Shown in pieces: positions 15,636-26,529 of a stretch of DNA of 39,130 nt. The number at the start of each line of letters is the position of its first letter. The stretch's first letter is position 1. The DNA is taken from contig JAJFGL010000025.1 in assembly GCA_021776135.1 (NCBI GenBank), positions 1-39,130 of the forward strand, in the 5' to 3' direction. The DNA is from Kiloniellaceae bacterium. Its GTDB lineage: Bacteria > Pseudomonadota > Alphaproteobacteria > Kiloniellales > J153. The position numbers and the translations under genes were made by a program. The notes below the pieces were generated by a model. That model made no database searches, was not told the DNA's origin, and saw only the letters and a list, made by a program, of their open reading frames with translations.

Positions 15636-15890
15636 ATGAAGATCCTGATTCTGCTGCTGGCCCTGCTCGGCGCCGCCGGCACCGCGACCGTGGTGCGCTA
15701 CGGCAGTCTCGACCCCTGCGCCTGGCTCGACCACGACAGCGCCGAGGCCAGCGGCCTGCCGCGCCTGATGGCCCAGGCCCAGGTCCGGGCCACGTTCCTG
15801 CTCGACGGCATTACCGACCCAACCCCCGGCGAATGCCTGACCGCCTGGTGGGACCTGAAAGCCAACGGCGCGGAGGCGGCAAAAGACTAG
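15636..15890 (+). CDS. Small secreted or membrane-anchored protein of unknown function
   Basis: Encodes 84 aa. MKILILLLALLGAAGTATVV is a signal peptide or membrane anchor. The remainder has two cysteines (LDPCAWL and GECLTAW) that could form a disulphide in the periplasm. It starts directly at the stop of the hydroxylase-family gene. I cannot name a family. The ORF has normal codon use for the region, and close coupling to a real gene makes it credible. Confidence 0.65.
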   Translation: MKILILLLALLGAAGTATVVRYGSLDPCAWLDHDSAEASGLPRLMAQAQVRATFLLDGITDPTPGECLTAWWDLKANGAEAAKD

Positions 15891-15944
15891 GGGCGCGGCG
15901 GCGGCGGAATATGGGCGCGGCAAGCGGCGCGTCTTCTGGCGCCA

Positions 15945-16014
15945 TGGGGCGGATCGCCTGAGCGCTGTGAGGGCTTCACTCACCGCCCCATTGCGCACCC
16001 GGCCCAAATGGGCC
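15945..16014. terminator. Structured intergenic region, possible factor-independent terminator
   Basis: TGGGGCGG at 15945-15952 pairs with CCGCCCCA at 15983-15990, with an inner GTGAG/CTCAC stem. A second hairpin GGCCCA-AA-TGGGCC is at 16001-16014. No run of T follows, so termination is only a suggestion. It lies 3' of the small secreted protein gene and just before the GC content falls. Confidence 0.3.
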
Positions 16015-16089
16015 AAAACCAGAACAGCCTCTACTTCTGAATGGTGGGAAGAAGGGGCTCAGGTCAAGAGGCGTCATTGTTGTGGTATA

Positions 16090-16100
16090 GATATGATATC
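16090..16100. promoter_or_regulatory. Short palindrome upstream of the ribbon-helix-helix gene
   Basis: GATAT-G-ATATC is an 11-bp palindrome around one central base, 33 bp before the start of the RHH gene. RHH dimers bind short inverted or direct repeats, so it could be an autoregulatory site. This is a weak prediction from position and symmetry. Confidence 0.25.
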
Positions 16101-16132
16101 CTCAGATTCGTGATCTACAAGGGGTTGCTAGC

Positions 16133-16333
16133 ATGGCCGCTAAAAAAAGTCTCATTCGGGTAACTATCAGCGTCGACAAGGACGATTATGCCGCAGTGGG
16201 CACTCTGGCGGAGCAAGCGAAAGTTTCTGCATCCTGGCCAATCAGCCAGGCAATTCGCGACTTTCTCGACAAGTACGGGGAGCACGGTCAGCCTGAGCTT
16301 GCCTTGCGGCTCGCGAACAAGCGCACGATGTGA
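16133..16333 (+). CDS. Ribbon-helix-helix (CopG/Arc-type) DNA-binding protein
   Basis: Encodes 66 aa. SLIRVTISVDKDDYAAVGTLA, shown as SLIRVTISVDKD plus DYAAVGTLA, matches the beta-strand and first helix of RHH proteins, and VSASWPISQAIRDFLDKYG matches the second helix. RHH proteins are small dimeric repressors that often control their own operons. It is the first gene of the restriction-modification island, 10 bp upstream of the methyltransferase gene. It may serve as the controller, a place more often held by helix-turn-helix C proteins, or be an antitoxin-like remnant; no toxin gene follows. GGGG at 16121 may act as ribosome binding site. Confidence 0.7.
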   Translation: MAAKKSLIRVTISVDKDDYAAVGTLAEQAKVSASWPISQAIRDFLDKYGEHGQPELALRLANKRTM

Positions 16334-16343
16334 GGGGGCGGGC

Positions 16344-18581
16344 TTGACCAAGACGGAACTTCAGAATCGACGGGTGGATGAGAAACGGCAGTGTTCGGCT
16401 CGTGTTGCGCCGTCTGCCCCGCGGCAAGAGAGTTCCGTGCTCAAAACCGGTATGGAGCAGGAAGCCTTGCGCTTGGACATTCCCCGGCGCGGACATGTTC
16501 TCTCGACCGCAGCCGAAACCTATGGCCGTCCCCTCCGTGATGCTGTCGCGGTTCTCTCCCGTTCACTCGCCAGAAAGCGCCGGTGCGCCGATCACCATCA
16601 GTCACTCTTCGGAATCGCGCGCTGGCAACCATTGCCAGACATGGTCCGCTCACCGGCTGAAATGGCGTCCTGGGCGATTGTGTCGATGTGGGCGTCTGCT
16701 ATAGCCAGCGAAGCTCTCCCCGCTACAGCTTCCTTGCAGGATGCCGAGTGTTGGTTCTTCGGCACTGACGCGCCGGGCCGATTGACGAGCCTGCCATCAG
16801 ACCAGGCCATCCACAGAGCTCAAACCCTTCTTGGCTCTGAGCCTGATCCTGCCGCCTACTTCCAACTGCTCCCCTATGTGCTCGACCCTCACGGACCGGG
16901 AAGCCGATTGAGTGTAAGACGCGATCCGGGCACCCACACAGCGCGGACCCGCAAGCGTGCCGAAGGCATTTTCTACACGCCGGCGGATGTCGCTGAATAC
17001 ATGGCCGCTGCCTGCCTGGATTCGATGGATGCCGACGATCCGCCTGCGGTATTTGATCCGGCATGCGGAACAGGCGTCTTCCTTCGAGCCGCGCTAAAGC
17101 TGCTTCGGCGACGCCATCTTGATAGGTGCGCATTCGAACTCGCATCGGAATTACTGTTCGGGGTGGATATCGACCCTTGGCCGCTCAATGCGGCTGCGTT
17201 CGTATTGCTTACAGACATATGGAAGGAAGGGCAGGGCGAGAGGTCAACACCCGCAGCGTTGTGGCGGCGGTTGCGTCTTAACTTCGCATGTATCGACACA
17301 TTACGGATTGATCCGGCAGAGGCCAAGAGCTGTTGTGCCAACCGCAGTGAATTTCCGCAAGCTGCGAATGCTGACGTGCACACTCTCTCCGGCGCAGACG
17401 AGGCCGCAGGGAGACGGGTGCCTCTACCGCTCCTATTCCCCTCTCTCAATCGTGGCCCCAGTATAATTATCGGCAATCCGCCCTATGCCAATATTGGCGA
17501 TCGCGATGATTTCTCGACGCTTGGCTATGCCTTCGAGACTTTAGCCGTCAAGCCTCAGTGGGGCGCGGAAATTTATTTGCCCTTTGTCGAGCAGATGATC
17601 CGGCTCGCAGCCCGTGACAGGAGCGCAGGCGCTATGGTGCTGCCCCTGTCCCTAGCCTGTAATGTAGGTCCGCAATTTGCCACGGCCCGCAAGCTGATCG
17701 GAGAGACACCGGGTGACTGGCGGTTCGCGTTTTTCGACAGGGAACCGCACGCCCTGTTTGGTGAGGACGTGAAGACACGTAACGCCATCATCGTTTGGTC
17801 GCGCACACAATCCGAAACGGAATCCGCTCTGGCAACGGGACCGATGCGAAAGTGGCGCGGCGAAAGCCGGTCCGCCATGTTCGGAAGTCTTCGGTTCACC
17901 GCGATCGACAGCGACATACGCACCGGCATTCCGAAGATCGATGGCGAATGTCAAGCAGTAGCGCTCAAAGTGCTGGGCGCGCGCAAGACGTGTCTTGATC
18001 TGGCTGTAAAGGATATCACGCGCCTCAACCTTGCTCGCGTACCAAATGTGGATAATCATACCGTTTTTGTCGGCCCAACCGCTTACAATTTTCTCAACGT
18101 CTTCCTGAAACCGCCTAGCGGCTTGTCAGCGAGCGGCCAAGTGCTTTCGGAGCATCCTCTCTATGCCATCTCATGCACATCACCCGAAGATGCGCTCGCT
18201 GTGTTCGCTGTCCTGACCAGCCACTTGGCCTACTGGTGGTGGCACACGCACGGTGACGGTTTCCACGTATCCAAGCGATTCATCTCCTCGCTGCCGTTCG
18301 GCCTTGAATTGCTGACAGGTGCTACGGCAGGAAAGCTCACTGCCAGCGGCGACGAGCTGTGGTCAAAGATGAGATTGAATCCCGTCATCAGCCTTAATCG
18401 CGGTCGGACTTCCCTCGCGTATACGCCTAACGGCCATGATGTCATCCGGCGCAAAGCAGATCAGGTGCTGGCCGATCTTGCTGGCATTGAGAGCGCTTTC
18501 GTTAACGAACTTCAGCAATTCACGACGCACACTGTAGCGGCCAAGCTACGCCAACCAGCAATCGCAGAAACTGTAAAATAG
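16344..18581 (+). CDS. N6-adenine-type DNA methyltransferase (Eco57I/type I-like, class I)
   Basis: Encodes 745 aa. The methyltransferase core runs in gamma-class order: GIFYTPADVAEYM (motif X, residues 208-220), FDPACGTGVFLRAA (motif I, SAM binding, 238-244 DPACGTG), GVDIDPWPLNAAA (motif II) and IIIGNPPYANIG (motif IV, NPPY at 378-381). A C-terminal part with FHVSKRFISSLPF resembles target-recognition regions of such enzymes. The N-terminal 200 residues are uncharacterised and show no obvious nuclease motif. The TTG at 16344 was chosen because GAGGGGG precedes it and the ORF upstream overlaps the RHH gene. Codon use is less GC-rich than the flanks. It presumably protects the host from the nuclease at 19679. 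Confidence 0.85.
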   Translation: MTKTELQNRRVDEKRQCSARVAPSAPRQESSVLKTGMEQEALRLDIPRRGHVLSTAAETYGRPLRDAVAVLSRSLARKRRCADHHQSLFGIARWQPLPDMVRSPAEMASWAIVSMWASAIASEALPATASLQDAECWFFGTDAPGRLTSLPSDQAIHRAQTLLGSEPDPAAYFQLLPYVLDPHGPGSRLSVRRDPGTHTARTRKRAEGIFYTPADVAEYMAAACLDSMDADDPPAVFDPACGTGVFLRAALKLLRRRHLDRCAFELASELLFGVDIDPWPLNAAAFVLLTDIWKEGQGERSTPAALWRRLRLNFACIDTLRIDPAEAKSCCANRSEFPQAANADVHTLSGADEAAGRRVPLPLLFPSLNRGPSIIIGNPPYANIGDRDDFSTLGYAFETLAVKPQWGAEIYLPFVEQMIRLAARDRSAGAMVLPLSLACNVGPQFATARKLIGETPGDWRFAFFDREPHALFGEDVKTRNAIIVWSRTQSETESALATGPMRKWRGESRSAMFGSLRFTAIDSDIRTGIPKIDGECQAVALKVLGARKTCLDLAVKDITRLNLARVPNVDNHTVFVGPTAYNFLNVFLKPPSGLSASGQVLSEHPLYAISCTSPEDALAVFAVLTSHLAYWWWHTHGDGFHVSKRFISSLPFGLELLTGATAGKLTASGDELWSKMRLNPVISLNRGRTSLAYTPNGHDVIRRKADQVLADLAGIESAFVNELQQFTTHTVAAKLRQPAIAETVK

Positions 18582-18589
18582 GGGGCGGC

Positions 18590-19519
18590 ATGAAGAAGAT
18601 TATTGATCCTGCCATCAAAGAAAAAAGTAAAGTTACTAAGGAAGAATGGCGGGAATACACCAAGACCGTCTGGACTATTGCAAACACGAGACGCGACGAT
18701 CACCCTGCCGTGTTCCCAGATGAAATACCTCATCGTCTGGCAAAGCTTTTTAGTTTCTATGGCGAAAGTGTACTCGACCCCTTTGCTGGATCAGGTACGA
18801 CAGCGCGCGCCGTAATTCCTTTAGGGCGACGCGCGATATGCGTCGACCAGAACGCCGGTTACGTTCGTAACATCAACAAGGAGTGCCGCAAGCTTCACAA
18901 TGGTCACGGGGAAAACTTTGAGTCTCTTCTCGCCGTCCACGGTGACAGCCGCGACATGAACTTCGTCGAGGATAATAGTGTTGGTTTAGTGGTCACGAGC
19001 CCGCCTTATTGGAACAAGGCCGACTATGGGAAATCCAAAAAGAATCTTGGGGACATCGAAAGTTATACAGAATTCCTTGAAGCTACGCGCCCGGTATTCC
19101 AAGAATGCTATCGTGCTCTGATGCCTGGTCGGAAAATCTGCATCGTGACAGCCAACGTCAATCAACACACCGACCACGGCCTGCTGACGTTCCCCCTGGC
19201 AACTGACTTCGCGGTGCTCTTGCGCAGCATCGGCTTTGTCATGATCAATGAAATCATCTGGTCGAAGGACGGCTCCGGCGGAAAATGGGGCTCCTACGGC
19301 GCACAGCGCCCTATTTTCGGAAGCTATCCTTACCCACCAAACTTCCTATTCAAAAACGTTCACGAATACGTCCTCATTTTCGCCAAGCCGGCACCCACCA
19401 AGACAAAGGGGCCGAAAGTGAAGCCATACGGCGATCTTGTGGCTGGTATCGAGCGCCTTGGCACCGGCAGCGGTCTTGATCCTGACGGTGAACCAACCGT
19501 TCCGCCTCTGCATTTGTAA
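18590..19519 (+). CDS. SPPYW-type DNA methyltransferase (probably N4-cytosine or N6-adenine)
   Basis: Encodes 309 aa. LDPFAGSGTTARA (motif I, 62-74) and VVTSPPYWNKADYG (motif IV, 134-147) are clear. SPPYW is the form usual in N4-cytosine enzymes of the beta class. In that class motif IV comes first and a WTI..RR..HPAVFPEELP segment leads into motif I at the C terminus. Here VWTIANTRRDDHPAVFPDEIP sits at the N terminus (28-47) before motif I, so the protein looks circularly permuted relative to beta enzymes. It starts 8 bp after the first methyltransferase gene with AGGGGGC before the ATG. Two methyltransferases fit a non-palindromic recognition site. Confidence 0.85.
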   Translation: MKKIIDPAIKEKSKVTKEEWREYTKTVWTIANTRRDDHPAVFPDEIPHRLAKLFSFYGESVLDPFAGSGTTARAVIPLGRRAICVDQNAGYVRNINKECRKLHNGHGENFESLLAVHGDSRDMNFVEDNSVGLVVTSPPYWNKADYGKSKKNLGDIESYTEFLEATRPVFQECYRALMPGRKICIVTANVNQHTDHGLLTFPLATDFAVLLRSIGFVMINEIIWSKDGSGGKWGSYGAQRPIFGSYPYPPNFLFKNVHEYVLIFAKPAPTKTKGPKVKPYGDLVAGIERLGTGSGLDPDGEPTVPPLHL

Positions 19520-19678
19520 ACAGTGCAAGGGGTGATCCGATGCAGATGGGCTACCTCATGCAGAACCCAACTTGTAGCAACGTAATTATATTCGACAGCT
19601 CTACTGGACCTTTCGCAGCTCACACTCAGACGTGGCGGAGGTGCTGCAATGTAAATTTGTGGGCAAGGAGGGGAATCT

Positions 19679-20818
19679 TTGTTTTATAATCAACCGCTAG
19701 CGGTCCGGTTCGGGACAGAACTGCTTCGTCATATCGACGAAACGGACCAGATCGATCCATTCTGGGATTCGCTTGACATCGCTGTGGCTTGGGTTCGTGC
19801 CTCGGGAATGGCGCACCTGACGGATCGCCTCGCGAACTTCTTGCACCATGGCGGCCAATTGTCGATCATTGTTGGGATCGACCTCCAGAACACCACACGC
19901 GAAGGGTTACAGGCGCTTCTCGATTTGGAGCAGCACGGCCACTGCGAAACGTATGTCTATCATAATGAGGCTGGCAGCATATTTCATCCAAAGCTGTACC
20001 TTTTTCGCAACGAAGAGGAAGCACGATTGATCGTCGGATCAAACAACATCACCGAGGCCGGCCTCTATGTGAATGTTGAAGCTGGCTTACAGGTCGATAC
20101 CGAAGTAGATGCGTCGGTCATAGTTCAGACGCTGGATGCGATCTCATCGTGGAAGGACACCACGAGCCGACTTGCTGTACGACTGGACCCTGAATTTTTG
20201 GATCACCTGATCCGCGAAGGCTACTTACCTGACGAATTGGCAGCTAGGGCAAAATTTCAGGGGGAAAGAACAAGGCGATCTACTTCCGGCAACCCTCCGC
20301 TTTTTGCGTCAAGAAGGTTTGCGGCGCCAGCACGCGCGCGCGCAGCTTCTCGCCTCGCCGTATCCCCAGCCGGTGACCAAGCTGGAACGACAACTGCGCG
20401 ACCTGAGACTGCACAGCTAGCGGCCTCGCCTGGAACAGTTCTACTAATGCGATTAAGAAAAGCGTCTGTAACAGACCGTCCAACGCAAACACAAATACCT
20501 TTCCGCGTCGTAGACGCCTTCTTTCAAAGTGCCCCGGAGGTTCTAAGTGCACACTCTGGCGACACACATGGAATTATCCATGCTTCTGCCAGAGGTAGTC
20601 GGAACACAATAAAACTCGAGATTCCAGAAATGAGGGGTTATGTACAGCCAATAGCCCGGTTCGAAAGGACGCCAGATGGTATAGTGTATGAGACCTATGA
20701 TGTCGGTTCACCGCAAGGAAATCAGATCATGGCTTCACTCGAAGAAGGAAGGCGTGACGGGACAACTCAAATGACGATTAGAGATGCCGAGAGGGCTACA
20801 TGGTGGCGCTTTATTTAA
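19679..20818 (+). CDS. Phospholipase-D-fold restriction endonuclease (BfiI/NgoFVII-like)
   Basis: Encodes 379 aa. One HKD motif is present: HPKLYLFR (His103, Lys105) followed by LIVGSNNITEAGL (Gly120-Ser121-Asn122). PLD-type nucleases with a single HKD motif, such as BfiI, form one active site per dimer and need no metal. An Ala/Arg/Pro-rich linker (about 200-250) leads to a C-terminal region with TQIPFRVVDAFFQ and TWWRFI, in the place of the B3-like DNA-binding domain of BfiI and NgoFVII. The start is TTG at 19679, placed 5 nt after AAGGAGGGG. Weak start plus a 159-bp gap behind the methyltransferases may delay its production. Function is inferred from fold and context. Confidence 0.75.
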   Translation: MFYNQPLAVRFGTELLRHIDETDQIDPFWDSLDIAVAWVRASGMAHLTDRLANFLHHGGQLSIIVGIDLQNTTREGLQALLDLEQHGHCETYVYHNEAGSIFHPKLYLFRNEEEARLIVGSNNITEAGLYVNVEAGLQVDTEVDASVIVQTLDAISSWKDTTSRLAVRLDPEFLDHLIREGYLPDELAARAKFQGERTRRSTSGNPPLFASRRFAAPARARAASRLAVSPAGDQAGTTTARPETAQLAASPGTVLLMRLRKASVTDRPTQTQIPFRVVDAFFQSAPEVLSAHSGDTHGIIHASARGSRNTIKLEIPEMRGYVQPIARFERTPDGIVYETYDVGSPQGNQIMASLEEGRRDGTTQMTIRDAERATWWRFI

Positions 20819-21156
20819 GACCTTTGGCCAGCGACAATCGATTGATTTAGTGTCGGCTCGCTACTTCGACAGCCATTCAGCGTAAGCCTGTTCATCGATC
20901 ATCGGCACCGTGCCGCTGAAATGGAGCTGCGAAATCAACCTGAACAGGAAGGCCGTTGCCGATGACCTGAGCCCCGCAAACTTCCCCGTTCAAGGAGGAG
21001 GGAGTTAGAAGAAGTACACAGCTACCGTTCCCTCCCCACGGAGAGGGAGAGCCGGGGTGGGGGTCTGCGATGTCGGGCACGGCTTCATGCGGGGGTGCGT
21101 GAACTTAAACCGGGCGCTAGTCGATCGGGGTCCGGGATGACGATTGGCGGCGGCCC
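20819..21156. other. 338-bp region at the right border of the island
   Basis: No complete gene was found. It contains a gene remnant on the minus strand (20861-20989) and, at about 21029-21062, a degenerate CCCTCCCC..GAGAGGGA hairpin resembling dispersed intergenic repeats. After that GC content returns to the level of the core genome. Confidence 0.55.
20861..20989 (-). pseudogene. Truncated gene end, unknown protein
   Basis: On the minus strand 42 codons are open up to TAG at 20861-20863. The peptide, for instance AFLFRLISQLHFSG followed by TVPMIDEQAYAEWLSK, reads like the C terminus of a real protein. A stop codon precedes it in frame and no start site is present, so it is probably debris. 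It lies just outside the restriction-modification genes and may mark an earlier insertion or deletion event. The family is not recognised. Confidence 0.4.
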
Positions 21157-21810
21157 CTAGGGCTCCTGCCCGCGCTGGGCGGGGTCGTAGATTTCCAGAT
21201 CGCCGTGGTCGAAGGCCTTGGCGTCGATGGCCATGCCGTAGCGGGGATCGACCAGGGAGACCTCGGTGCGCACCCCCTGGGCGTCGACCACCTGCCACTT
21301 GCGCAAGGACAGGGGCGCGTCCTCGAACACCAGGGTGATTTCGCCGATATCCGGATTGCCGGTATCGCGCAGGCTAACCCGCAGGGTGCCGCGTTCCTGG
21401 ATCACCTTTTCGACTTGCACGCCACCGGATAGCTTGACCTCCTCGCGCACCAGGAACCACAGGGGCGTCTCCGCCAGGGGCAGGAAACTGGCCTGCTTCA
21501 ATTCCCGGTCGTAGAACAACAGCGTCGCGTCATTGGCGATGAGCAAGACCGGCACCGGCGGATCGTAATCGAAGCGCAAGCGCCCAGGACGGTCGATCAA
21601 GACCTCCCCTTCGGCGTAAGACCCGTTGGAGGAAATCTGCACGAAACGCGCCCGCAAGGTCGAAATACCGTTCAGATAGCCAAGCGCGCGCGCGACATTG
21701 GCCTCATCGGCAGGCGTTAGCGCCGCCGCCCGCGAGGGAGCGGGGACGGCGGCCATGAGCCCGGCCAGAAGCAGGGCCGCCGGTAGATATCTAAGAAAGA
21801 ATCGCGCCAA
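21157..21810 (-). CDS. lolA: LolA-like outer-membrane lipoprotein carrier protein
   Basis: Encodes 217 aa. FLRYLPAALLLAGLMAAVPAPSRA is a signal peptide (shown as FLRYLPAALLLAG plus LMAAVPAPSRA). The mature part has LNGISTLRARFVQISSNGSYAEG, given here as LNGISTLRARF plus VQISSNGSYAEG, then RPGRLRFDYDPP, the LolA pattern. LolA shuttles lipoproteins through the periplasm from LolCDE to the outer membrane. No ATG is available; TTG at 21810 is the best start and is weakly supported. In many alphaproteobacteria lolA neighbours ftsK and xthA; here ftsK is missing from the neighbourhood and xthA is about 7 kb away with the island between. Confidence 0.82.
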   Translation of the reverse strand: MARFFLRYLPAALLLAGLMAAVPAPSRAAALTPADEANVARALGYLNGISTLRARFVQISSNGSYAEGEVLIDRPGRLRFDYDPPVPVLLIANDATLLFYDRELKQASFLPLAETPLWFLVREEVKLSGGVQVEKVIQERGTLRVSLRDTGNPDIGEITLVFEDAPLSLRKWQVVDAQGVRTEVSLVDPRYGMAIDAKAFDHGDLEIYDPAQRGQEP

Positions 21811-23910: not shown

Positions 23911-24614
23911 TCGACTTTTATTACTGGCCGACCCCCAACGGCTGGAAGGTCTCCATCATGTTGGAGGAATGCGGCCTGGCCTACAAAACGATCATGCTCG
24001 ACATCGGCGCCGGCGATCAGTTCACGCCGGAGTTTCTGGCCATCGGCCCCAACAACCGCATGCCGGTCATCGTCGACCGCGATGTGGACGGCGATCCCGT
24101 GCCGGTGTTCGAATCCGGGGCGATTCTTTTCTACCTGGCGGAAAAGACCGGCAAGTTCATGCCCGCCGATGCGCTGGGGCGCAAGGAAGCCCTCGAATGG
24201 CTGTTCTGGCAGACCGGCAATCAAGGACCCATGGCCGGGCAGCTCAGCCATTTCGTCAATTACGCGCCGGGGGAGCAGCCCTACGCCCTGGAACGCTATG
24301 GCCACGAATACGAGCGTTGCCTGGGGGTTCTGGAACGGCGCCTGGAAGACCGTCCCTTCATCCTCGGCGCGGATTATAGCATCGCCGATATGATGAGCTG
24401 GCCCTGGGTTTTGATCGCCAAGCCCCTGGGCCAAGCGCTCGAGGCTTTCCCAAGGGTTTTCGCCTGGCGCCAGAGCGTCAAGGCGCGCCCCGCCGTGCAA
24501 AGAGGCGTCGATCTAGGCAAGGAACACCGCCGTGCCGCACCGCCAAGCGAGGCCGAGCGCAAGATCCTCTTCGGCCAGAACGCAGACACCGCCAAGGAGA
24601 TTAGCGGCGGCTAG
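23907..24614 (+). CDS. Glutathione S-transferase family protein (YghU/YfcG-like)
   Basis: Encodes 235 aa. An N-terminal thioredoxin-fold domain has YYWPTPNGWKVSIMLEECGL, with PNGWKV typical of the Nu-class YfcG/YghU proteins, then NNRMPVIVD (cis-Pro) and FESGAILFYLAEKTGKF. The all-helical C-terminal domain follows, with GADYSIADMMSWPWV. Nu-class members act as disulphide-bond reductases with glutathione. It overlaps the CoA-transferase gene by 4 bp. Its TAG stop lies inside a short copy of the foldback-element end (24611-24640), and part of its 3' end is repeated at 24988-25026. Confidence 0.88.
   Translation: MIDFYYWPTPNGWKVSIMLEECGLAYKTIMLDIGAGDQFTPEFLAIGPNNRMPVIVDRDVDGDPVPVFESGAILFYLAEKTGKFMPADALGRKEALEWLFWQTGNQGPMAGQLSHFVNYAPGEQPYALERYGHEYERCLGVLERRLEDRPFILGADYSIADMMSWPWVLIAKPLGQALEAFPRVFAWRQSVKARPAVQRGVDLGKEHRRAAPPSEAERKILFGQNADTAKEISGG
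24513..24556 (+). repeat. Source copy of a short direct duplication (GST 3' region)
   Basis: The 44-bp stretch beginning CTAGGCAAGGAACACCGCC recurs at 24988-25026 with a 5-nt deletion and a few substitutions. The first copy codes for GLGKEHR-type residues of the GST C terminus; the second lies after the NIPSNAP gene. Confidence 0.7.
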
Positions 24615-24640
24615 ATCATTTTCCGATCGTACGGACCCAT
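24611..24640. repeat. Partial copy of the foldback element arm
   Basis: CTAGATCATTTTCCGATCGT followed by ACGGACCCAT matches the outer arm of the element at 135-164 apart from a few positions (TTTTCCGA and TACGGACCCAT are identical). There is no inverted partner nearby. It starts with the same CTAG and again supplies the stop codon of the preceding gene. Confidence 0.65.
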
Positions 24641-24655
24641 AGGAAGGAGATTCTC

Positions 24656-24985
24656 ATGCTGCTCGACGTCCGCACCTACCGTTGTAAGCCCGGAACCATT
24701 GCCGCGCACCTTGCCCTCTATGAAAAGTACGGTAAGCCGCCCCAGTTCCGCTGCCTCGGCGAACCGCTTTGCTATCTCAAGTGCGAAACCGGCGATCCGA
24801 ACGAATACATGCACATCTGGGTCTATGAGAACGCCGGCGACCGCGAGGCGAAGCGCGCCGCCCTCTGGGCCGACGAGGAATGGTTGGCCTACACGCGCAA
24901 AAGCGCGGAACTGGGCGCCCTGGCGAGCCAGGCGAACAAACTGATGACGCCGGTCAAGTTCTGCCCCCTGGCCGCCAAGTCATAG
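24656..24985 (+). CDS. NIPSNAP family protein
   Basis: Encodes 109 aa. LLDVRTYRCKPGTIAAHLALYEKYG (shown as LLDVRTYRCKPG plus TIAAHLALYEKYG) and MHIWVYENAGDREAKRAALW fit the NIPSNAP ferredoxin-like (dimeric alpha/beta barrel) fold. The molecular function of bacterial NIPSNAP proteins is unclear; they are frequent beside catabolic CoA genes. AGGAAGGAG precedes the ATG at 24656. Its position after the CoA-transferase and GST genes suggests one transcription unit. Confidence 0.82.
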   Translation: MLLDVRTYRCKPGTIAAHLALYEKYGKPPQFRCLGEPLCYLKCETGDPNEYMHIWVYENAGDREAKRAALWADEEWLAYTRKSAELGALASQANKLMTPVKFCPLAAKS

Positions 24986-24987
24986 GC

Positions 24988-25026
24988 CTAGGCAAGGAAC
25001 ATCGCCGCACCGCCAAGCGTGGCCGA
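24988..25026 (+). repeat. Second copy of the GST 3'-end duplication
   Basis: This is a 39-bp copy of 24513-24556 with 5 nt missing. It lies directly at the switch from GC-rich to AT-rich sequence, in front of the zinc-ribbon membrane protein gene, and may mark the joint of an insertion. Confidence 0.65.
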
Positions 25027-25042
25027 AAATTGGGATGTGAAA

Positions 25043-25486
25043 ATGGCTTGTGATAGATGTGGTAATATTGCGTGTTCTACTTATTATTCCTGTACAATTT
25101 GTAACCCTGACAATCAAAAAAAAGTCCAATTTGCTGATCCGGCTGCTCATGAGGCAGGGAGACAGCTTGGTTCTGGTCTGGTGGAAGGATTGATTTGGCT
25201 TGCCGGAAACAAATACCTTTCTTTTCTATGGTTTTGGCTTGCTTGGATAATTACTGCGATGACCTTAGGCGATAGTTATGTATTTAGACCGACGGACGAC
25301 AATTATCCTGGATGGTTCATTGTTTTATCGGTGTTCGTCCCAATTGGTCTCGCAGTTATTTTTCGTAAAGCTATCATGAAATATGTGCCGATGTTACTGC
25401 TTACGATTGTTCACACAGGTTTCCTTATTGTGTTGGGCATCATTGTGCTTTTTCTTATTATGTTTATCTATCATGCATTTAGTTAG
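25043..25486 (+). CDS. Zinc-ribbon membrane protein of unknown function, AT-rich
   Basis: Encodes 147 aa from the ATG at 25043 (MACDRCGNIACS); a GTG at 25019 lies in the duplicated DNA and is less likely. The N terminus has CDRCG and CTIC separated by 13 residues, with a further Cys between, a plausible zinc site. About three or four hydrophobic segments follow (FLWFWLAWIITAMTLG, GWFIVLSVFVPIGLAVIF, MLLLTIVHTGFLIVLGIIVL). Base and codon use is strongly AT-rich compared with the neighbours, indicating recent acquisition. I recognise no family. Confidence 0.6.
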   Translation: MACDRCGNIACSTYYSCTICNPDNQKKVQFADPAAHEAGRQLGSGLVEGLIWLAGNKYLSFLWFWLAWIITAMTLGDSYVFRPTDDNYPGWFIVLSVFVPIGLAVIFRKAIMKYVPMLLLTIVHTGFLIVLGIIVLFLIMFIYHAFS

Positions 25487-25592
25487 AATAACTGTGAAGA
25501 ATTATGCCTTACTGATTTTGACCCTCGTTGGTGCTTTGGATGTACCGCAGTCGTCCGCTTTGGGTGGTCGACGTATTGACTATTCTCTTTAG
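25473..25592 (+). CDS. Small ORF with signal-like start, possibly a truncated gene
   Basis: Forty codons from the ATG at 25473 encode MHLVRITVKNYALLILTLVG and a short tail ending GGRRIDYSL. It overlaps the end of the zinc-ribbon gene by 14 bp. KNYALLILTLVGALDVPQSSA resembles a signal peptide, so this may be the beginning of an exported protein that has lost its body. It could also be chance. Confidence 0.25.
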   Translation: MHLVRITVKNYALLILTLVGALDVPQSSALGGRRIDYSL

Positions 25593-25637
25593 TTTAGGAA
25601 TAAAAAGCTATGACTGAACTAGTCACGTGCCTGAGGT

Positions 25638-25820
25638 ATGATCACGGTTAAGCAAAGAACGCTGCGGAGTTTTTATCTGTTGCCGCGCGGGCCCACGGCG
25701 TTTCAGGTGGAGGATGCCGGCACTCGCGTCGAATTCCAGTTGGACGGCACCAGCAAGGCGACCGCGATGCTCGTGTGGTTTGAGCCGGGATTACCCTATG
25801 AAATGCCGCGCGTGCCGTGA
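25638..25820 (+). pseudogene. Probable gene remnant (C-terminal fragment)
   Basis: An open frame of 60 codons encodes FYLLPRGPTAFQVEDAG, then EFQLDGTSKATAMLVWFEPG. The beta-strand-rich pattern resembles the C-terminal domain found after some serine hydrolases, but it lacks any N-terminal domain. It is GC-rich, unlike the preceding gene. I treat it as debris in the 25487-25920 region; no other gene is seen there. Confidence 0.35.
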
Positions 25821-25920
25821 GCACGGCATCTTTCGTACCCACCACATGTCGCGCCCGGTCTTAGGTTTCGGGCGGGCCGCCGTTTGAACACTTGGGCTGC
25901 TTGGCATCGTCCGGTTTTTT

Positions 25921-26529
25921 TTATGGCTGGAACAGGCCCCTGTGTTTCAGGATTCCATCGATGAAATCTTGTGGTGAACCGTACTTGCTATAGCAATTGT
26001 CAATATTGCCGATCCGGCTGCCGATGCTGATTTCCGGAAACCCGATTTTCGCCATATCGTGACGCATCGCGGCGGCAACCCTGCTGAACCCCGCGCGGTC
26101 GAAACCCTCTTCATCGCGCAGGCGCAGGATCGCGACACAATCGCTAATGCTTTCATTCATCAGGTGTTCGGGGCTGTTGCGCGGCGGATGCGGGCGGTCG
26201 ACATCGCCGGTTTGGTGATGGGCGCATTCATGCCGGTCGATAAAGCGCTGAAATTCCGGTGGCGCGGCGGCATAATTGGATCTGAAAATCACCGCTTGAC
26301 CGTTACGGTCCCTGATGGCCATACCGGCCGCCATGGCAGAGCGTTCTCCGTTCCGCTCAATGAAGCGAACCATTTCCCCTTTATTATTGGTACAAGGCGG
26401 TGGATTAACGACATCGTAGGTCGTGAGAGTTTGAGCATCCTGCCCTATGGCGGCGTTGGAAGCAGCCATGCTCAAAGCCAGACCCATAGCGGGAAGAATG
26501 ATGCTCAGCGCAGTGCCTTGCAGCGGCAT
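25921..26529 (-). CDS. Small secreted HExxH protein, putative zinc metallopeptidase
   Basis: Encodes 202 aa. LSIILPAMGLALSMAASNAA is a signal peptide. The mature part contains RFIDRHECAHHQTG, an HExxH motif (His100, Glu101, His104), and 22 residues after His104 NESISDC (Glu126 or Asp130), a candidate third zinc ligand as in gluzincin-like folds. Four cysteines may form disulphides. ATG at 26529 follows GGGAGGTG. I cannot assign a named family, and activity is inferred only from the motif. It lies between AT-rich debris and tldD, transcribed in the same direction as tldD with a 53-bp gap. Confidence 0.6.
   Translation of the reverse strand: MPLQGTALSIILPAMGLALSMAASNAAIGQDAQTLTTYDVVNPPPCTNNKGEMVRFIERNGERSAMAAGMAIRDRNGQAVIFRSNYAAAPPEFQRFIDRHECAHHQTGDVDRPHPPRNSPEHLMNESISDCVAILRLRDEEGFDRAGFSRVAAAMRHDMAKIGFPEISIGSRIGNIDNCYSKYGSPQDFIDGILKHRGLFQP

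Follow-up and report, generated by a model that had tools for sequence, protein, structure and literature searches.

A cassette of four genes in an alphaproteobacterial genome very probably encodes a type IIS-like restriction-modification system of the BfiI design. It lies in a stretch of 39,130 nucleotides from a Kiloniellaceae bacterium (JAJFGL010000025.1; hereafter the window), which is one whole contig (C18) of a 3.96 Mb genome. Four forward-strand open reading frames (ORFs) at 16133-20818 code for a ribbon-helix-helix (RHH) protein, two methyltransferases (MT1 and MT2) and a PLD protein, the latter being the restriction endonuclease candidate (Table 1). A preliminary description of this DNA, made from the letters alone, had listed the same four genes in one direction, with an NPPY motif in the first methyltransferase, SPPYW in the second and a single HKD in the PLD protein, and both the ORFs and the Pfam profiles agree with it. 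The gene set, its kept order and the catalytic residues, read in the sequence, form the basis of the assignment, together with a PLD plus B3 architecture seen in the predicted model. The most likely role of the system is defence, by cutting unmarked foreign DNA.

Nuclease, methyltransferases and putative regulator

The PLD protein matches the Pfam family PLDc_2 (E-value (E) 4.6e-9) and falls 0.5 bits short of the RE_NgoFVII profile cut-off (23.3 vs 23.8 bits). A good ribosome-binding site, AAGGAGG, stands shortly 5' of its TTG start, and the first residues, MFYNQPL, are identical in all eight loci compared (the window and seven others). BfiI is its best match in the Protein Data Bank (PDB), with E 0.006 by phmmer and 2.2e-4 by profile (2c1l). 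In the phmmer alignment, H103, K105, N123 and E134 align without gaps to H105, K107, N125 and E136, which are the catalytic residues of BfiI according to the published work (PMC4081073). The catalytic H and K are found in eight of eight loci, N and E in seven, the exception being a locus with a disrupted frame (L020). The AlphaFold2 model of the protein has a mean predicted local distance difference test (pLDDT) score of 63, and is better in the C-terminal domain. Foldseek places BfiI on top (E 1.9e-7; template modelling (TM) score 0.28-0.29; root-mean-square deviation (rmsd) 14.9). With this match and the four aligned residues, the BfiI-like nuclease proposed in the preliminary description gains support. 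In the structure comparison by VIA, the PLD domain of SauUSI reaches Z 12.1, and BfiI, with 261 residues aligned over 6-379, has Z 10.3 and rmsd 12.7; because of this high rmsd, the PLD and B3 domains would be placed differently from those of BfiI. Two further assignments of the PLD protein were tried and rejected, namely DrmC of DISARM (18.9 bits vs a curated 133) and DpdK of Dpd (15.2 bits vs a curated 100).

From residue 251 on, 12 of 13 ten-residue blocks of the model reach a pLDDT of 65-89, the remaining one 55. By VIA, this C-terminal part resembles the B3 domain of UbaLAI (residues 250-379, Z 8.8, rmsd 3.4, 114 aligned), the N-terminal domain of LlaJI.R1 (residues 252-379, Z 8.5, rmsd 3.0, 107 aligned) and plant B3 domains (Z 5.8-6.6); values below 8 may reflect a mere common arrangement, and the first two lie slightly above. 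The C-terminal domain is thus modelled with a B3-like, DNA-binding fold, in line with the DNA-binding domain anticipated in the preliminary description.

MT2 matches N6_N4_Mtase (PF01555, E 1.4e-38) in two stretches, residues 11-96 falling on profile positions 124-220. Motif I (DPFAGSGTT, from residue 63) is N-terminal to SPPYW (residues 137-141; nucleotides 18998-19012), and the motif order reads as X-I-IV, permuted against the Pfam model. An NPPY motif favours N6-methyladenine (m6A), and SPPYW favours N4-methylcytosine (m4C). By its SPPYW, MT2 may thus produce m4C. This target is uncertain, with adenine as the alternative, because adenine methyltransferases are matched as well: the best NCBIfam models are adenine-specific, and the PDB list, headed by the putative modification methylase 2zie (E 6.3e-40) and followed by N4-cytosine methyltransferases (E 4.3e-10), goes on to include enzymes such as RsrI, CcrM and MboIIA, which act on adenine. 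The identity of MT2 among the eight loci is 58-92%. The region after motif VIII (residues 226-259), the expected place of target recognition, has 22 of 34 columns invariant in nine rows, across phyla. Phages hold 53 records of MT2 relatives, all below 60% identity, and a phage search with MT1 gave no match.

The MT1 ORF spans 16188-18581 (797 aa), with a likely start at 16344 (TTG) or 16452 (ATG) and hence 709-745 aa. It matches N6_Mtase (E 4.2e-7) and Eco57I (E 2.9e-6), its NPPY being at 17475-17486. The structure model (mean pLDDT 62.5) is of an adenine-type methyltransferase by its predicted fold. It was also considered whether MT1 could be a PglX of BREX or a type IIG enzyme carrying its own nuclease. 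Foldseek indeed ranks DrdV first (E 2.1e-4, the only match at E ≤0.001) and PglX next, one PADLOC type IIG model matches residues 423-710 of the 797-aa ORF (E 7.3e-11), and BpuSI appears by VIA (Z 9.9). The same VIA comparison, however, is headed by a plain adenine methyltransferase, M.BseCI, with Z 13.5 and rmsd 12.3 (320 aligned; model residues 178-686, counting from 16452), ahead of PglX (Z 11.8) and CamA (Z 11.6). Moreover, within the limits used (for PADLOC, the best 25 of 40 families), the region N-terminal to the methyltransferase core matched no family; this region is weakly modelled in places, and a nuclease within it is conceivable but unsupported.

The small first gene encodes a member of RHH_1 (PF01402, E 1.7e-5, above the Pfam cut-off), and not a C protein; C proteins bind via a helix-turn-helix (PMC3874152). 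Operon-leading RHH regulators are described in the same source for toxin-antitoxin systems, as repressors, unlike the helix-turn-helix C proteins of restriction systems. By analogy, the RHH protein would probably repress or time the operon. The RHH protein of another paper (PMC3346939) is a plasmid partition protein, irrelevant here. No inverted repeat of at least 7 bases was found at 15985-16140, 5' of the gene. A relative of it precedes MT1 in four of the eight loci (the window, L002, L015 and L017), and L017 is the only independent find, since the search model was seeded with the other three. The RHH gene is a variable part of the cassette.

Conservation, probable island setting and neighbouring genes

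Apart from the window, seven loci have a close homologue of the PLD protein. Six of them came from a scan of genome contigs with a three-row PLD alignment, and the seventh from a Salipiger plasmid; a single-sequence PLD scan of the genome contigs gave no match. The loci belong to Salipiger profundus, a Rhodobacteraceae bin, Sneathiella (found again as L006 in genome G342 and counted once), Ruegeria atlantica, a Hasllibacter bin (two contigs) and a Chloroflexi bin. In all seven, thus in Alphaproteobacteria and one Chloroflexi bin, MT1, MT2 and PLD genes follow each other in the same order and on the same strand, so that two methyltransferase genes adjoin the nuclease as in the window. MT1 and MT2 form a single ORF in Salipiger (985 aa) and Ruegeria (986 aa); they overlap by 4 bp in four loci and by 65 bp in one, and are separated by 8 bp in the window. 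The presence of both methyltransferases in seven of seven loci, and their fusion in two, lends weight to the idea, put forward in the preliminary description, that two unlike methyltransferases act jointly with the nuclease. Taken with the BfiI match and the B3-like C-terminal domain, it also favours the type IIS-like design suggested there.

No further gene family common to all eight loci emerged from an all-against-all comparison of ORFs, as far as the flanks reach. This result concerns sense-strand families, and out-of-frame ORFs shared inside the MT1, MT2 and PLD genes were set aside; L016, L018 and L020 have little or no DNA 3' of PLD, and an additional gene on that side could have escaped notice there. 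The family is rare. Among 385 genomes of the class, MT2 at E 1e-40 and the B3 domain at E 0.001 each find only two, namely the window's genome and G342. The PLD protein has matches in 10 of the 385 genomes, and a PLD profile in 12 of 398 genomes of the phylum; only in these two is the match full-length. A scan of viral contigs with PLD found none, and phages gave one distant, partial match.

More remote relatives of the PLD protein, with about 30% identity that is mostly confined to the PLD part, amount to 35 hits: 16 on plasmids, 18 in genomes and 1 in a phage, a weak second match in the window's own genome being left out. Of these 35, 11 were inspected by a crude motif scan. The expectation that homologues of the nuclease occur with methyltransferases, which stood for the close loci, gave a mixed outcome here. 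A methyltransferase-like ORF is present in the fetched stretch of seven (L003, L004, L005, L036, L038, L039 and L041) and absent from three (L037, L040 and L042); the last, L043, is doubtful, its match being mainly over the linker. In L003 (7929-12150, a Rhizobium anhuiense plasmid), the distant PLD protein is encoded facing two methyltransferase genes that are type II but of a different kind, and this is perhaps a separate PLD restriction system.

The window cassette sits in a stretch of about 5.2 kb that was likely acquired as an island. This is strongly indicated because the flanking genes are adjacent to each other, and the four genes lacking, in three of three same-genus genomes (G744, G745 and G746, among 21 genomes with lolA searched). 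Their alignment to the window ends at 15871-15884 and picks up again at 21123-21164, the aligned flanks being separated by 157, 406 and 19 bp. Queries with the RHH, MT2 and PLD proteins gave no match in the fetched stretches of these genomes; the MT1 protein was not among the queries. The G+C content is 0.52-0.60 across the genes vs about 0.62-0.67 in the nearest flanks, as the preliminary description had noticed. At the right edge, outside the system, a DUF6602 gene has left a remnant of its 3' end, an open stretch closing in a stop on the reverse strand. It shares 75-77% DNA identity with five plasmid records (four annotated as DUF6602, one as hypothetical), and in an Agrobacterium plasmid a DUF6602-type gene adjoins CBASS genes. 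This broken end hints at an earlier defence gene at the island site. Elsewhere in the window, a second low-G+C stretch lies outside the island at 24501-26000 (0.51 and 0.47 in two 1-kb windows), and the same genome has a second lolA-like copy, 74% identical (G000:C28:67660-68241, L057).

Several relatives of the cassette are found in mobile settings. That of Salipiger is on a conjugative plasmid, that of Ruegeria is 3' of a Tn3 transposase and a resolvase, and that of Sneathiella is a few kb 3' of an integrase fragment. A Tn3-transposase-like ORF is common to L002 and L017, as are resolvase-like ORFs, whose cluster further includes ORFs from L015 and L033. GIY-YIG-type proteins (PADLOC PDC-S14) flank the cassette in L015 (3643-4644, +) and L017 (7858-8817, +). 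Another gene of L015 (9234-10343, -) adjoins the PLD cassette and encodes a 369-aa protein without a Pfam match, in which a different N-terminal part is joined to the same kind of B3-like domain at the C-terminus (43% over 136 aa); it may be a second effector that uses the same B3 reader. On plasmid pB of Paenarthrobacter ureafaciens (L033, 2490-9192), homologues of MT1 (30%) and MT2 (63-65%) accompany an AAA_5 ATPase, a 281-aa gene and a 161-aa protein, and no PLD gene is annotated in the 13.8 kb fetched. The 281-aa gene has a nuclease-like ILELK stretch by our own reading, and no Pfam family at cut-off. The 161-aa third gene was tried as a free B3 domain and is unsupported as such: its profile comparison probability (0.4%) falls within those of 30 shuffles (0.0-1.1%).

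Table 1. Coordinates of the cassette, its motifs and its surroundings in the window
Feature	Position	Strand	Basis
RHH (CopG-like) protein, 66 aa, putative operon regulator	16133..16333	+	PF01402
MT1, adenine-type DNA methyltransferase (predicted), order X-I-IV, C-terminal target-recognition region	16344..18581	+	Eco57I and N6_Mtase profiles
MT2, N6_N4-type methyltransferase with SPPYW, 309 aa	18590..19519	+	PF01555
PLD-B3 restriction endonuclease candidate (R), 379 aa, TTG start	19679..20818	+	BfiI 2c1l best PDB match
HxK active-site motif (H103, K105); N123 and E134 complete the set	19985..19993	+	BfiI alignment
Predicted C-terminal B3-like DNA-recognition domain, residues 250-379	20426..20815	+	predicted model
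Likely acquired island (approximate limits)	15874..21122	.	alignment breaks vs three same-genus genomes
84-aa hypothetical gene, left flank of island	15636-15890		
lolA, right flank of island	21157-21810		
Remnant, 3' end of DUF6602 gene, island right edge, outside the system	20860..20961	-	DNA identity to plasmid records

Weighing the BfiI design against other readings

Several observations weigh against the BfiI design, the case for which is made wholly from sequence and predicted structure. The superposition on BfiI over the whole length is poor by both Foldseek and VIA, and because of the low TM score and high rmsd the agreement is one of separate domains. The PLD model is moderate, with a pLDDT below 50 in the active-site stretch (residues 97-143), and the B3-like domain has no meaningful sequence match in the PDB. 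It can be compared in only six of the eight loci, since the PLD genes of L018 and L020 run off their contigs. MT2 and PLD genes are 159 bp apart in the window vs 9-37 bp elsewhere. The pairwise distances of the MT1, MT2 and PLD proteins correlate (r 0.831, 0.804 and 0.795, reached in 0, 0 and 17 of 10,000 permutations), as would be expected from joint transfer as well, and two of the eight rows come from one bin. The single MT1-MT2 pair without PLD, on the Paenarthrobacter plasmid, and the three distant PLD loci lacking a methyltransferase-like ORF add to these points.

A system like CglI/NgoAVII, in which the PLD-B3 protein would recognise the site and a separate DEAD-family ATPase would be needed for cutting, appears improbable. 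R.CglI and R.NgoAVII have the same PLD and B3 architecture and are described as not cutting alone (PMC4267653), and an ATPase could sit elsewhere in the genome, where no search was made. In the island operon itself, however, no ATPase is found, as there is no further large same-strand ORF, and no extra family is common to all loci within the flanks available. The published CglI/NgoAVII systems are moreover composed of one 5-methylcytosine (m5C) methylase, the PLD-B3 R-protein and the required ATPase (PMC4267653), whereas two amino-methyltransferase profiles are met here. There is equally little probability that the methyltransferases act alone or serve another effector, the PLD gene being merely a neighbour. 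The plasmid pB pair, adjoining the AAA_5 ATPase and the 161-aa protein, would fit this view; on the other side, the nuclease gene follows MT2 directly in all seven other loci, with their short gaps, and the three proteins diverge together. Least probable is that the island has decayed or become inactive and persists by chance. The broken DUF6602 gene and the disrupted PLD frame of L020 would be in line with decay, but the four window ORFs are full length compared with their relatives, the checked motifs are kept and the PLD gene has its good ribosome-binding site.

It is also conceivable, although unlikely, that one MT1-MT2 pair of conserved specificity serves interchangeable effectors, namely the PLD-B3 nuclease in Alphaproteobacteria and the Chloroflexi bin, and the AAA ATPase with unknown partners on the Paenarthrobacter plasmid. 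One shared recognition sequence would fit here, because the MT2 region after motif VIII is so conserved between phyla. In L015, two effectors could then read the same methyl-protected site.

Under the favoured BfiI design, the nuclease would act, by analogy with BfiI, as a dimer with one metal-independent active site between the PLD domains, each B3 domain reading a short asymmetric sequence. Unmodified DNA would be cut at a fixed distance, the strands in turn, via a covalent phospho-histidine intermediate. The target of MT1 would be an adenine on one strand of the site; that of MT2 would lie on the opposite strand and be either cytosine at N4, as SPPYW suggests, or adenine. Host DNA would be protected on both strands since each enzyme is proposed to mark one.

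Relation to known restriction systems

PLD restriction systems are few, and a coherent family now joins them; its complete cassette occurs in two phyla, and its pair of methyltransferases in three. What is new is a further member, the BfiI kind itself being already known and uncommon. Such a member is not surprising, because more than 40 putative enzymes with the HxK residues were in REBASE at the time of the published work (PMC4081073). The family predicts a pair of unlike methyltransferases protecting one asymmetric site and a metal-independent nuclease with a possibly new specificity. It allows the study of how B3 reader, methyltransferases and nuclease are matched, and the members led by an RHH gene could serve to test how restriction is controlled where there is no helix-turn-helix C protein. 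Literature searches returned no named BfiI or BmrI components and, judged from titles and abstract starts among the matches listed, no description of this system.

The preliminary description had stated that no nameable system matches this gene content and order. This has to be revised: BfiI is described as M1 + M2 + R, where the nuclease is of the PLD type and the two methylases each modify a different strand (PMC4267653), and the RHH gene that seemed to set the window apart leads only four of eight loci. The named system fits because two methyltransferases and a PLD-B3 nuclease without an ATPase make up this published composition. Likeness to BfiI (isoschizomer BmrI; type IIS, ACTGGG) extends, in the accounts cited, to the HxK nuclease with its H, K, N and E, the C-terminal B3 domain and the lack of an ATPase (PMC4081073, PMC4267653); unlike BfiI, to which the sequence similarity is only distant, the window has an RHH gene in front. 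CglI/NgoAVII share the PLD plus B3 R-protein and differ by their DEAD ATPase and single m5C methyltransferase. The NgoFVII/AspCNI cluster is approached through the RE_NgoFVII profile, which spans the PLD part only and stays below its cut-off. UbaLAI and LlaJI.R1 resemble the C-terminal 130 residues of the window nuclease in predicted fold, their domains belonging to other enzymes.

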